Source of the DNA: Flavobacteriaceae bacterium | Lineage (GTDB): Bacteria; Bacteroidota; Bacteroidia; Flavobacteriales; Flavobacteriaceae | DNA length: 32,774 nucleotides | Assembly: GCA_022565635.1 (NCBI GenBank) | Contig: JAIUMH010000017.1 | Location: 1-32,774 of the forward strand | Direction of reading: 5' to 3' | Notes under the pieces: model-generated | Told to the model about the DNA's origin: nothing | Databases searched by the model: none | The model's input: the letters and a program-made list of their open reading frames with translations, nothing else | Made by a program: the position numbers and the translations under genes | Part shown: piece by piece, positions 3,965-10,143 of the stretch | Numbering within the stretch: position 1 is the stretch's first letter | Layout of the letters: each line of letters starts with the position of its first letter

Positions 3965-4864
3965 ATGGCAGAGAAACTTTACAATAAACTTAAACGATTA
4001 TACTTGGTAGTGAATACACTTCGCTCATCGCCCGCTAGCAAAAGCGAATTATTGAATTTACTACAAGAACATGGTCTTTCTATTGAAGTGGCCACTTTTG
4101 AGCGCGACAAAAAAACCTTAAAAGAAGATTTCGGAATTCAATTAGTATATGATGCTCACCTTCAAAAATATAAGCTTGAGGAAATGGACGACAGAGAATT
4201 GGCTCAACTTATTCAATTCCTACAATTCAATCAATTATCACAAGCCTTAAATGCCAATCTTTCTTCTTCAGTGAAGCTCTTGGATTATATCGATTTTGAA
4301 AACGAAACCTTATTAAAGGGGATAGAGCACCTGCATCAGTTAATTGTAGCAACAAAAAATCAGTTGACTATTAGTTTCAAACACTATTCATTTCAAAGTC
4401 AAAAAACACATACCATTACTTTGAATCCCTATTTGCTAAAGCAATACCAAAGCCGATGGTATGTAGTGGGACAAACCTCCTATGGTGCGGTACGTACTTT
4501 CGGTATAGACCGCATTTCTGAATTAGAAGTATCAACCGACCATTTTACAGTCGAAAAACTTGAGATACGAGAGAAATTTAGTAATTGCGTCGGTATTTCA
4601 GCATACGCAATGCCCAAAGAGCTCGTCCAAATTAGTTTTGAGATCTCTCAAAAACCTTATTTAAATCACCTTCCTCTCCATGCAAGTCAGAAGCTAATCG
4701 ACGAAAACGAAAATGAAGTTATTTACGAGTATCATGTAATTAACAATTTTGAATTTAGACAACACATCTTAAAGTATGGTGCTATGGCAAAAGTACGATC
4801 TCCTAAAAGTTTGGTGAAACAAATTCAAAAAGAGCTTTCTAGGGCTTTTAAAAACTATTCGTAG
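3965..4864 (+). CDS. WYL-domain transcriptional regulator
   Basis: N-terminal HTH-like region plus WYL core 'LNPYLLKQYQSRWYVVGQT' and 'RTFGIDRI'. Confidence 0.85.
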   Translation: MAEKLYNKLKRLYLVVNTLRSSPASKSELLNLLQEHGLSIEVATFERDKKTLKEDFGIQLVYDAHLQKYKLEEMDDRELAQLIQFLQFNQLSQALNANLSSSVKLLDYIDFENETLLKGIEHLHQLIVATKNQLTISFKHYSFQSQKTHTITLNPYLLKQYQSRWYVVGQTSYGAVRTFGIDRISELEVSTDHFTVEKLEIREKFSNCVGISAYAMPKELVQISFEISQKPYLNHLPLHASQKLIDENENEVIYEYHVINNFEFRQHILKYGAMAKVRSPKSLVKQIQKELSRAFKNYS

Positions 4865-5076: not shown

Positions 5077-5289
5077 TCCTCCCTTTAAGGGAGGACCGAG
5101 GTGGGTGTTCACCATTTAATAAGTTTAAGAGCCCAATTTAGATGAATTATTCTATTACAGATTTTATCCTCCCTTTGAGGGAGGACCGAGGTGGGTGTTC
5201 ACCATTTAATAAGTTAAGAGCCCAATTTAGATGAATTATTCTATTACAGATTACTTCCTCCCTTTGAGGGAGGACCGAGGTGGGTGTTT
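5077..5289. repeat. Tandem ~90 bp repeat, about 2.4 copies, with core TCCTCCCTTT(A/G)AGGGAGGACCGAGGTGGGTGTT
   Basis: Core starts at 5077, 5167 and 5256; the first two copies share the spacer CACCATTTAATAAGTT(T)AAGAGCCCAATTTAGATGAATTATTCTATTACAGATT. Confidence 0.95.
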
Positions 5290-5386
5290 ATCTTAATCAT
5301 TTTTTTAGTACTCAATAATTATGCAATTTGAAAAAATACTGCCACTTCTTTTAACTTCTAAAACATTAATCAAATAATTTTTCAGC

Positions 5387-5441: not shown

Positions 5442-7499
5442 ATGGATTACAAAGAATTAATGCACAAGCAAAAGCAACTAGATGAAATTAAAATTCAGCT
5501 TAACAAAGAATTTTTCGGGATTCATCAGGTCATCACTCAAATCATGGATACCATAAGTCCTTGGTATTTATTTAATCACCTTCAAGAAAGTCCGCTTATT
5601 GTCAACCTTTGGGGATTAACAGGAACAGGAAAAACCGCCTTGGTAAAACGCTTAGTAGAACTACTTGACAAAAAACAAGCTTTTTTTCATTTCGATATGG
5701 GAGATCTTTCCAATAAATCCCTTAACCGAGAATTATCTGAAGCCCTTAAGGTATACGAGGGAGACGACTATATTATTTGCTTGGATGAATTTCAACATGC
5801 TAAGTCGAAGGATGAAATGAACAAAGAGACCAAGATTAAAACCGACTTTAATATTTGGAATTTCTTAGACACAGGTGAATTTGATTTTTCGAGCATAGGT
5901 CATTGGATGAAGCCCTACATTAGCAGATATGATTCGCTAAAAACATGGATTGAGTATGGCTTTAAACTTGAAAATGGTCTTGTGTACATCAATCAACAAC
6001 CTCAAAAAATAAGAGGCTACATCAAGCGTTTATTTGAAACTGAAGAAACCGATGAATTTGTAGAATTCTTTGATAAAAGCGAACGCATCCGGATCAGTAA
6101 ACTTTTTTCAGATCGATTTAAAAACATCTTCGAATTTGATAAATTCTACTTCAATTCCAACGAAAACGATATCCTTTGCTTGTTGTTTGAAGCCTCTAGG
6201 AAAGAACGCGAACAAGAAAAAGGAAAAATGAAAAAATCCTTGGTCTTTATTTTAGGTAATTTAGATGAAGCCTATAGAATGAGCGAAAACTTCAACGCAG
6301 ATATCAGTGCAGATGCTTTTTACAAAATCTCTCTTCGCATCAACATAAGCGATATCAAATATGCTTTAAAGCGAAGATTTAGAAACGAACAAATTGCTCG
6401 ATTAGGGAATAATCATGTCATCTATCCCGCTTTAAGCGAAAGAGCTTTTCAGAAAATTATTGAAGTCAAACTTCAATCCATAGCCACTAAGTTTTTAGAG
6501 TATACCCAAATTAAATTGGAGTTTAGTGATTCCATTTTCAACATGCTTTTTAAAAATGGGGTGTATCCAACACAGGGAGTTCGCCCTTTGTTAAGTAGCA
6601 TCAAAACCTATATTGATGCCAAATTAGGAAACATCTTAACCTATATGCTTGAGAACGAAATTTCAGCAAACCTAATTAAAATGGATCTTGAAAAGAATAA
6701 TCTCATAGCTACCTACATTTATGCAGATGAGGTATTGGCAAGCCATAAGCTTCAACTAGATTTATCACTAGAAAATATCCGATCAAAAACCAACAACAAC
6801 AAAAAGGCAGTTACCGCTATTCATGAAGCAGGGCATGCAGTTGTAAGTATTGTATTACTAAAAGAAATTCCCTCACAGCTCAATGCCAATTCTACCGATG
6901 CAGAAAGCGATGGTTTTATGTTTAGCGATACAGATCACGACATTATAGCCAAACATCAGTTATTGAAAATGCTAGCACGATTTTTAGCCGGTTTGGAAGC
7001 AGAAGCCTTAATTTTTGGCGAATCAAACATTACCTTAGGAGCAAGTTCCGACTATCAGCAAGCTACAGAATTTGCATTGAAAGCCTTTAGAGAGAGTGGG
7101 ATGGGAGGAGTTTTAGGCTACCATCAAAAAGCATCAACTCAAAATCCCTTTACTTTTGAAAGTAAACTTTTACATATTGAAGATGAAGTTATGAAATTGC
7201 TTCATGAAGCAAAACTCAAAGCTAGAGACATCCTCTTAAACGAGAAAACCTTATTATTAAAAATCGCCTCTTTTTTAGTGACCAACAACAGCATGAACAA
7301 AAGCGATTTAGAAAACCATATTGAGGGCTACGCAAAAAGCATTAGTTTACAGAGCATTAAAGAAGACGAAGGCCAGAACTTTTATGCTCAAGCATTACAA
7401 AATGCAGTAACTCAAATTCCAAAAGAAGACTTGGCTCCAGACCAAAAGTTAGCAGACAGTTTATACGAATTCCTGAGCCTTAATAAAGACCAAGCCTAA
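5442..7499 (+). CDS. Clp/HSP100-D2-like AAA+ ATPase fused to FtsH-type M41 zinc metallopeptidase
   Basis: Walker A GLTGTGKT (res 58-65), Walker B IICLDEF, sensor-1-like FILGN, arginine-finger-like FRNEQIAR, Clp-type sensor 2 GVRPL; M41 HEAGH (res 461-465) and downstream LGASSDYQQATEFA; no FtsH N-terminal TM helices evident. Confidence 0.85.
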   Translation: MDYKELMHKQKQLDEIKIQLNKEFFGIHQVITQIMDTISPWYLFNHLQESPLIVNLWGLTGTGKTALVKRLVELLDKKQAFFHFDMGDLSNKSLNRELSEALKVYEGDDYIICLDEFQHAKSKDEMNKETKIKTDFNIWNFLDTGEFDFSSIGHWMKPYISRYDSLKTWIEYGFKLENGLVYINQQPQKIRGYIKRLFETEETDEFVEFFDKSERIRISKLFSDRFKNIFEFDKFYFNSNENDILCLLFEASRKEREQEKGKMKKSLVFILGNLDEAYRMSENFNADISADAFYKISLRINISDIKYALKRRFRNEQIARLGNNHVIYPALSERAFQKIIEVKLQSIATKFLEYTQIKLEFSDSIFNMLFKNGVYPTQGVRPLLSSIKTYIDAKLGNILTYMLENEISANLIKMDLEKNNLIATYIYADEVLASHKLQLDLSLENIRSKTNNNKKAVTAIHEAGHAVVSIVLLKEIPSQLNANSTDAESDGFMFSDTDHDIIAKHQLLKMLARFLAGLEAEALIFGESNITLGASSDYQQATEFALKAFRESGMGGVLGYHQKASTQNPFTFESKLLHIEDEVMKLLHEAKLKARDILLNEKTLLLKIASFLVTNNSMNKSDLENHIEGYAKSISLQSIKEDEGQNFYAQALQNAVTQIPKEDLAPDQKLADSLYEFLSLNKDQA

Positions 7500-7547
7500 C
7501 ATTTTTAGACCACTTTTTGTAAGTAAGAAACACGAAATAAATGTACA

Positions 7548-8360
7548 ATGAAGGATATAATTATTCAACTTGAAAAACTTTTACAACCCAATAAAGAAGA
7601 GGCATTACTACAAGCTTTACAGTTGAAGAACAAGTACTTTAAATCAAATGCTAAAATGATTTGGCTTACCAGTGATTTGGATTTCTTCAATGCCACCAAG
7701 TTGAATCAACAAGATAACGCTAAAGAATTAATAGAAGATCCAACTATTAAAGAATTAGCTGAGGTTGTAGAACGATTGAACCAGACAAAACTCAATGAAA
7801 TTTCAGAAAGTAAAGAAGAAGCTATTCATTATCCAATCTTCATAGCGTCAATAGTTGATCAAGCACTTGAGAATGAGGAAGCTAAAGAGAAGCACATCAA
7901 AACTTCATTAGACATACTAGTAGAAATTTTGTCCAGTCAACCACCCGAAATTGTGCTTTTAATGGGAAAGCATGAAGCTCTAAAAAGCGAATTACAACTT
8001 AATCAGTTCAATTATTTTGACACTTGTAAAGCTACTTCCAAAGGAAACACAATATTTGTTGAAGTCGATTTCCATGCCGAAGAGAAATCTACATGGAGTA
8101 CCAGCAACGATATTTTAAAAGCCGTGATTAAATTCAGAAATCAGATTCAAAAATGGAGCGAAAAAGCATATTCTATTGAAGCCTATCAAACTGACACAAA
8201 TCAGCTAAAATCCGATTTTACAAAGCTTCAAAAACAAATATTACAAATAAAGTGTAAATTAGTCAGCCATAAGCAATTTGAAGTAGCATCTAAGTTAAAA
8301 GACCTTGAAGATGATTTAAAACGCATCAACGATAAATTGAATAAATTAAAACAGAAGTGA
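7548..8360 (+). CDS. Hypothetical helical protein with C-terminal UVR-like motif
   Basis: Complete ORF 48 nt after the AAA-M41 gene; C-terminus 'KCKLVSHKQFEVASKLKDLEDDLKRINDKL' resembles UVR motifs of UvrB/UvrC/ClpC/McsA. Confidence 0.65.
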   Translation: MKDIIIQLEKLLQPNKEEALLQALQLKNKYFKSNAKMIWLTSDLDFFNATKLNQQDNAKELIEDPTIKELAEVVERLNQTKLNEISESKEEAIHYPIFIASIVDQALENEEAKEKHIKTSLDILVEILSSQPPEIVLLMGKHEALKSELQLNQFNYFDTCKATSKGNTIFVEVDFHAEEKSTWSTSNDILKAVIKFRNQIQKWSEKAYSIEAYQTDTNQLKSDFTKLQKQILQIKCKLVSHKQFEVASKLKDLEDDLKRINDKLNKLKQK

Positions 8361-8503: not shown

Positions 8504-9625
8504 ATGAATATTATAGAATTAAAAGATTTTTTCGAAAAAGAAAAAATACCACATATACCGAAATCAAAATTAACCTTTTTAAAAATCAGTAAGCAACCGC
8601 ATTACGAAAATGTAATGAGCAACATATATGCTTTCTTTTTCAATTCTGAACAGGAGCATGGTTTTAAAGATTTATTGTTAAACAGTTTACATCAATGCAT
8701 TATTGAAAATGAAGAATGGAAAGATTTTCCTTTCTACAATGATTATACTGTAAAGACAGAATACACTACCAAAAAAAGAGGAAGAATAGATTTATTATTA
8801 AAAAATGAATCGAGTGCAATAATCATAGAGAATAAAATGTACCACCATCTCGATAATGGACTAAATGATTACTGGACATCAGGTACGGAAGACTTAGAAA
8901 CTTCAGACGAATCAATAGGCGTCATACTCAGCTTAAAAAAGATAGAGCCTGGCAACAAGAATTTTATAAATATTACACACCAGCAACTAATGAAGAAAAT
9001 ACGCCAAAACTTTGGTGCATATCTTTTAGATGCTAAACCAAAATATATAGTTTATTTTCAGGATTTTCAACAAAACATTGACAACTTAAGCAAAAAAAAT
9101 ATGAAGCAGGAACACCTAGATTTTTATATCGAAAACAGCGACAAAATCAAAGCAATATTAGAACTAAATAAAAAATATAAAGATGCGGTTCATGAACAAT
9201 TTGTAGCACTTAAGGAGGGCAAATTATTTAGCGAACATTTTGAGTATGCAAATAAATACCCAAGCAAAAAAAGTCAATATTACAAGTTGGTAAGTGTTTT
9301 TCAATTAAGAAGGAAATCAAATTTAAGGATTAGGATTAAATTTTCTTATAGGCAACTCATTAATAAAGAGACTGATTTTTTGTTTAAGGTAAGAATAGAT
9401 ACCAAACAAAAATTAGAAAATTCAGTTTTTAATAGACTTATTGATGACTTAAGCGGGCAAATACATTTTGAAGGGAATAACAAAAGTGACACAACATTCA
9501 TTACAAAAATTTATTACCCTACTAAGGAGGAAAGAAAAAATCTAACTAACTATATTTTAGATAAACTAAAAGAGGATGATTTGATTAATATAGCAGTGAA
9601 AATAGGGAATCACTTAAACGCTTAG
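8504..9625 (+). CDS. PD-(D/E)XK nuclease superfamily protein
   Basis: Nuclease core 'RGRIDLLLKNESSAIIIENKMYHH' (D-x(n)-ExK), similar to the PDDEXK_4-type layout. Confidence 0.75.
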   Translation: MNIIELKDFFEKEKIPHIPKSKLTFLKISKQPHYENVMSNIYAFFFNSEQEHGFKDLLLNSLHQCIIENEEWKDFPFYNDYTVKTEYTTKKRGRIDLLLKNESSAIIIENKMYHHLDNGLNDYWTSGTEDLETSDESIGVILSLKKIEPGNKNFINITHQQLMKKIRQNFGAYLLDAKPKYIVYFQDFQQNIDNLSKKNMKQEHLDFYIENSDKIKAILELNKKYKDAVHEQFVALKEGKLFSEHFEYANKYPSKKSQYYKLVSVFQLRRKSNLRIRIKFSYRQLINKETDFLFKVRIDTKQKLENSVFNRLIDDLSGQIHFEGNNKSDTTFITKIYYPTKEERKNLTNYILDKLKEDDLINIAVKIGNHLNA

Positions 9626-9825: not shown

Positions 9826-10143
9826 ATGAAAAATCTTTCTGATGCTGAGGAAAGAAAAATGAAGGAAGTGAAGCAATTGGCTATAATATTAATGGAGAAA
9901 CACAAGGTTTCACATTACAGTTTTCGTTTTGGGTATGGTTGGAGATATTTAGGTCGTTGTACATCAATTGCAATTATCCTAAACTATAAGCATGCTTTGT
10001 TCGGTGATATGGAAGATATAAAAAATACATTATTACATGAAATTGCACATCCAATTGTTGGCCTGGAAAATGGTCATTGCGAAGTTTGGCAACTAAAAGC
10101 AAAAGAATTAGGAGTAGTTTATAATCGTAATTTCCACAAATAA
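9826..10143 (+). CDS. Minimal SprT-like zinc metalloprotease domain protein
   Basis: 'TLLHEIAHPIVGLENGHCEVWQLKAKELG' matches SprT HExxH...H layout; 105 aa, no zinc ribbon. Confidence 0.75.
   Translation: MKNLSDAEERKMKEVKQLAIILMEKHKVSHYSFRFGYGWRYLGRCTSIAIILNYKHALFGDMEDIKNTLLHEIAHPIVGLENGHCEVWQLKAKELGVVYNRNFHK

Follow-up and report, generated by a model that had tools for sequence, protein, structure and literature searches.

To our knowledge, M41 peptidases otherwise come with a membrane anchor and an AAA motor of the classical FtsH type. An open reading frame in a stretch of 32,774 nucleotides from a Flavobacteriaceae bacterium (contig JAIUMH010000017.1 of GenBank assembly GCA_022565635.1; the whole stretch is hereafter called the window) raised the question of whether such a peptidase can be joined to a soluble motor of the Clp/HSP100 type and, if so, what the resulting protein might do. 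The original prediction had been made from the DNA letters and described the product of this frame as a Clp/HSP100-D2-like AAA+ motor fused to an M41 peptidase. The motifs on which it drew were all present: FRNEQIARLGNNHVIYPALSERAFQKIIEVKL, starting at F313; GVYPTQGVRPLLSSI, which contains the sensor 2 arginine; HEAGH; and LGASSD with its zinc-ligand aspartate. Positions of these and other features are collected in the table below. In an alignment of 45 full-length relatives with 22–61% identity, residues K64, D115, E116, N273, R320, R381, H461, E462, H465 and D537 were invariant; conservation of these ten key residues at such identities indicates that the hybrid architecture is real and not due to chance.

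Features of the hybrid protease locus (nucleotide positions in the window; residue numbers refer to the hybrid protease)
Feature	Position	Strand	Evidence
Hybrid protease ORF, 685 aa	5442..7499	+	ORF call; ca. 50 full-length relatives
HSP100-D2-type AAA+ motor, residues 1–440	5442..6761	+	Profile, curated models, Foldseek, alignment
Walker A GLTGTGKT, residues 58–65	5613..5636	+	Sequence; 45-row alignment
Walker B IICLDE, residues 111–116	5772..5789	+	Sequence; 45-row alignment
Insert of ca. 100 residues at the Clp D2 pore-2 position (by alignment), before sensor 1, residues ca. 150–262	5889..6227	+	Alignment with own ClpC/ClpB D2; lengths
Sensor 1 Asn273	6258..6260	+	Invariant, 45 rows
Arginine finger Arg320, aligned with R of Clp EFLNR	6399..6401	+	Profile and alignment
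D2-small domain, residues 331–396, with sensor 2 GVRP	6432..6629	+	Pfam PF10431
Sensor 2 Arg381	6582..6584	+	Invariant, 45 rows
Peptidase M41 domain, residues 451–624	6792..7313	+	Pfam; profile of M41 half
Zinc-binding HEAGH, residues 461–465	6822..6836	+	Sequence; 45-row alignment
Third zinc ligand Asp537	7050..7052	+	Invariant in 45 rows; aligned with FtsH motif
WYL + WCX transcription regulator, probable controller	3965..4864	+	Pfam; linkage in 17/17 assessable clade members
PD-(D/E)XK nuclease (PDDEXK_4; PADLOC PDC-S26), probable island partner	8504..9625	+	Pfam, PADLOC; linkage in genus
270-aa protein directly 3' of the hybrid protease gene, same strand	7548..8360	+	ORF

A profile of the AAA half, built from residues 1–440 of 42 family members, matched the D2 modules of Hsp104, ClpE, ClpC and ClpB in the PDB with E values down to 2.3e-17, and FtsH was absent among the best 60 PDB sequences listed. 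When the 42 members were scanned singly, 41 matched the ClpB model and none matched FtsH among the matches listed. As a control on selected loci of the host genome, the family AAA HMM matched the Clp D2 protein of locus L106 (E 1.5e-16), and FtsH, ClpX and a second Clp protein (L107) were not among the matches listed. In Pfam, ClpB_D2-small was matched over residues 331–396 with an E value of 5.4e-8 and 33.2 bits against a cut-off of 21.9. Arg320 aligned with the Clp arginine finger and the invariant R381 with sensor 2, so that the sensor 2 GxRP motif and the D2-small domain of HSP100/Clp D2 modules are both present. An AlphaFold2 model of the AAA half (pLDDT 89.5; full-length model, pLDDT 87) was compared with known structures by Foldseek, and all of its best 50 matches were Clp/HSP100 proteins (ClpB, ClpC, ClpA, Hsp104 and Skd3/CLPB), with TM-scores, normalised by target length, of 0.62–0.75 against isolated ClpB NBD2 structures; by this measure the highest values for ClpB NBD2 were 0.75–0.76. 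The protein is not a whole ClpB, scoring 47.7 bits against a cut-off of 1232 for the ClpB equivalog and having a single AAA module, without the D1 and M-domain. Assignment of residues 1–440 to a Clp/HSP100-D2-type rather than an FtsH-type motor is thus well supported by sequence and predicted fold. The N-terminal half had been predicted to fall with Clp D2 and away from classical FtsH AAA, and did so by profile, one-by-one model scan and Foldseek; the chimera as a whole was likewise borne out by profile searches, by curated models and by structural comparison with AlphaFold and Foldseek.

By its sequence, the second half is an FtsH-type M41 zinc peptidase. Pfam Peptidase_M41 was matched over residues 451–624 (E 1.1e-20; 74.8 bits against a cut-off of 29.9), and a profile of this half alone matched FtsH at 3.8e-31. 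Together with the domain match, the HExxH motif and the downstream aspartate, invariant in the 45 rows, place it in the M41 family, and the earlier reading of HEAGH as retained and of Asp537 as the third zinc ligand stood. The best Foldseek matches of the full-length model were FtsH chains, at rmsd values of 11–16 Å, suggesting that in the model the relative placement of the two halves differs from that in FtsH or is uncertain.

The absence of N-terminal transmembrane helices, also predicted, was confirmed by a hydropathy scan. The highest 19-residue mean within the first 150 residues was 0.84, consistent with no transmembrane helix, let alone a pair, being evident in the 685-aa protein, and no N-terminal helix was evident by the same scan in any family member. 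The host also encodes a canonical FtsH, two large Clp proteins and one ClpX-like protein, and the hybrid protease is thus an extra protein; that it might be the sole FtsH of the host was ruled out by the full FtsH found on another contig.

Comparison of the family with the ClpC-type and ClpB-type D2 modules of the host revealed a deletion in the motor. The match took in Walker A and the DMSE/DMGD strand behind it; a gap came next, and then Walker B. According to the alignment, the segment missing in that gap is GAPPGYVGYEEGG of Clp D2, the pore-1 loop. Spacing between Walker A and Walker B was 49–56 residues in 45 members versus 66 in Clp D2, and in none of these 45 rows was a [FYW][VIL]G motif found between Walker A and Walker B, the GYVG signature of pore 1 being absent. 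Further downstream, the interval between G145 and K265 spanned 84–185 residues in all members except L012, where it was 19. By alignment, the gap would correspond to the pore-1 loop and the insert to the pore-2 position. As judged from these sequences, the pore-1 loop of Clp is deleted and does not serve to grip substrate; its loss may make processive unfolding weak, and in most members the insert of ca. 100 residues would be the likeliest substitute or adaptor for substrate handling.

Two alternative readings of this architecture were weighed. The best full-length Foldseek matches and the order of motor followed by M41 are those of FtsH, as would be expected of a divergent FtsH paralogue that has lost its membrane anchor. 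However, the AAA half is Clp D2 by profile, curated models and fold, with a D2-small domain above cut-off, and the FtsH equivalog TIGR01241 was matched with 61.1 bits against a cut-off of 600. A divergent FtsH was rejected on these grounds, and we regard loss of the anchor from such a paralogue as very improbable. The loss of GYVG throughout the 45 aligned members, together with the shortened Walker A to Walker B spacing, would also fit a pseudo-motor, an AAA+ regulator attached to an M41 peptidase, which does not thread substrates owing to the missing pore loop 1. By contrast, the ATPase and zinc residues are all invariant, and this second reading seems improbable to us, if less so than the first. 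A third candidate explanation, fusion of two genes by misassembly or frameshift, was ruled out by the ca. 50 independent full-length copies carrying the fusion.

A search for homologs with the same architecture, which the original prediction had called for, yielded a conserved but uncommon family of ca. 50 full-length relatives. The set of full-length proteins (n = 49) comprised 39 reference-genome loci and ten viral-contig loci, the latter recovered with an alignment query where a single-query scan had returned none. Family members were found in Bacteroidota, Ignavibacteriota (Melioribacteraceae), Fidelibacterota (one Neomarinimicrobiota MAG) and large phage contigs, and this occurrence suggests transfer between phyla. 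Plasmids and isolate phages gave close matches to the M41 half only and no full-length copies. Presence was patchy: within the genus, 7 of 27 genomes carried the gene, and 5 of the 396 genomes sampled across the phylum did so; the genus is inferred to be Psychroflexus from locus L014 (a Psychroflexus curvus contig, G162:C31). An empty-site comparison yielded no clean empty site, as the region downstream of pccB was different in all 15 congeners inspected. A tree of 50 rows showed a large WYL-linked side and a Flectobacillaceae clade, with phage-contig rows at several positions, and the HflX-linked rows lay on one side of a branch with a support of 100/100. The ten viral contigs were 25–413 kb in size, and in L056 the protease is encoded close to a baseplate gene. 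In two related jumbo-phage-like contigs (L053 and L054) the hybrid protease lies beside a nicotinamide phosphoribosyltransferase, of phage type in L053, and a cytidyltransferase/NUDIX protein. In an Arcicella MAG (L049, 7977–9795) two ORFs of 347 and 243 aa stand in place of a continuous hybrid protease gene, a split possibly caused by a frameshift or an assembly error.

The gene neighbourhood was analyzed for clues to function. A gene for a WYL regulator was found no more than three genes away from the protease in 17 of the 19 genes of the window's clade, that is, in all 17 that could be assessed, the two others lying on short contigs (2.9 and 4.5 kb). Repressors of the WYL type, BrxR and CapW among them, are known to govern phage-defence loci (PMC9122588, PMC9122589, PMC9122601), and the adjacent WYL gene of such loci is found here. 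Among 83 neighbour proteins scanned there were 18 WYL proteins, 7 PDDEXK_4 nucleases (PADLOC PDC-S26), 5 DUF2779 proteins and 2 type I HsdR subunits; ShosA/DprA and an S24 peptidase were further neighbours of family members. No PADLOC model was matched by the hybrid protease itself, neither Pfam nor PADLOC gave a match for the 270-aa downstream protein, and no RNA families were found in the window. Apart from the nuclease of the window, its genome gave no PDDEXK_4 match. PDDEXK_4 was above cut-off in seven genomes of the genus, and in five of these it lay within ca. 2.5 kb of the hybrid protease, corresponding to five of the seven protease carriers in the genus. Co-occurrence of both genes in the genus gave a Fisher p of 0.005, and chance linkage of the five pairs was estimated at ca. 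4e-13, both values overstating independence because the genomes are related. WYL types varied among loci, and the nuclease gene was variable in orientation and missing at several protease loci, indicating that the nuclease is no fixed operon partner.

Judged by gene neighbourhood only, we slightly favour a role in WYL-controlled defence islands, in which the protein would act as a soluble protease dependent on ATP. Hexamer formation, ATPase and protease activity, the role of the insert, regulation by the WYL protein and the role in defence are what we infer, the conserved arginine finger being the only clue relevant to a hexamer. In the proposed mechanism, the protein would be a single-chain zinc protease whose HSP100-D2-type half most likely forms a ring that unfolds or feeds proteins at the expense of ATP, and whose M41 half would degrade them in a fused chamber, in an FtsH-like manner yet in the cytosol. 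In the window's clade the adjacent WYL regulator most likely sets expression of the protease, probably holding it off until infection or damage. Work in the island would then be directed against phage proteins or consist in policing the associated nuclease, phage proteins and the neighbouring nuclease being the two likeliest targets. A more far-reaching proposal, which we put forward tentatively, is that these soluble Clp D2–M41 proteins without a canonical pore-1 loop are a separate class of AAA+ proteases that, combined with a WYL switch and in many cases a PD-(D/E)XK nuclease, constitute an undescribed anti-phage system, also acquired by large phages.

The neighbourhoods lend themselves to two other interpretations. 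ClpXP degrades type I restriction enzymes in restriction alleviation, and the hybrid protease might be a similar safeguard, degrading the neighbouring nuclease (PDDEXK_4 or HsdR) when host DNA is threatened. Adjacency to a nuclease is indeed repeated: seven loci have PDDEXK_4 as a neighbour and two have HsdR; some WYL-linked copies (L033 and L097), however, have no Pfam-recognised nuclease next to them, and genomes G161 and G164 carry PDDEXK_4 without the hybrid protease, so we think this role unlikely. Given the same low weight, and a main rival of the defence reading, is a cytosolic quality-control protease for ribosome or translation stress, secondarily recruited to islands. Most members of the Flectobacillaceae clade adjoin HflX, no defence genes were recognised beside these HflX-linked copies, and in L028 (7986–10016) and L046 (7983–10025) the protease gene lies directly 3' of the genes for RtcB and PrfH (peptide chain release factor H). 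These neighbours may point to a wider stress role for the hybrid protease; by contrast, the window's clade is linked to WYL and nuclease genes with no such adjacent gene, RtcB lying farther off in L012.

The closest known systems share some features with the hybrid protease and differ from it in others. Like FtsH, YME1 and AFG3L2, it carries in a single chain a motor followed by an M41 peptidase with HExxH and a downstream Asp; unlike them, it has a Clp D2-type motor instead of a classical AAA module and no transmembrane helices, and it scores 61 bits against the FtsH equivalog cut-off of 600. With the D2 of ClpB, ClpC and Hsp104 and with Skd3 it shares the AAA fold, arginine finger, sensor 2 GxRP and D2-small domain, and it differs from them in having one AAA module, no evident N-domain, no pore-1 loop, an insert of ca. 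100 residues and its own fused peptidase in place of ClpP. BREX BrxL and IetAS also combine an AAA+ ATPase with a protease module in defence; these modules are Lon-like or subtilisin-like, not M41. BREX can be under WYL control via BrxR (PMC9122589). FtsH ternary conflict systems are likewise predicted conflict systems with a component named FtsH (Kaur et al. 2020, PMC7159879); they are described as having a pair of AAA domains of FtsH type alongside MoxR-vWA partners, and are not known to have a Clp D2 motor. Pfam, NCBIfam, PHROGs and PADLOC matched the separate halves or nothing and contain no family for the fusion, and no published description of a Clp D2–M41 fusion was found in the literature searched, a scope to which most subscription papers did not belong; the architecture is thus not among the families of these collections. 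A stable cytosolic family pairing a Clp motor with M41, if confirmed, would mean that motor and peptidase classes are swappable, and it would test how an AAA+ ring works without the aromatic pore-1 loop. The hybrid protease is also a candidate defence component.

Several minor features of the islands were also observed. The 577-bp gap between the WYL and protease genes contains, at 5077–5304 of the window, three copies of TCCTCCCTTTGAGGGAGGACCGAGGTGGGTGTT with a spacing of ca. 90 bp. This repeat was not found elsewhere in the host genome or in the loci compared from other genomes, and its dispersal through the host genome is unsupported. At the end of the island (9826–10143) a small SprT-like zinc-metallopeptidase-like protein (HEIAH) is encoded. 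A cassette of WYL and DUF2779 genes recurs beside the hybrid protease in L011, L012, L017 and L033, with a UPF0227/YqiA-like hydrolase in three of the four. In a congener, locus L100 (G164:C12:135000-151000) is an island with WYL and a PDDEXK_4-type nuclease and without the hybrid protease, and its 334-aa protein resembles a 331-aa protein beside the protease in L014. In L012, a ShosA/DprA-like gene (7122–8078) lies directly 3' of the hybrid protease.
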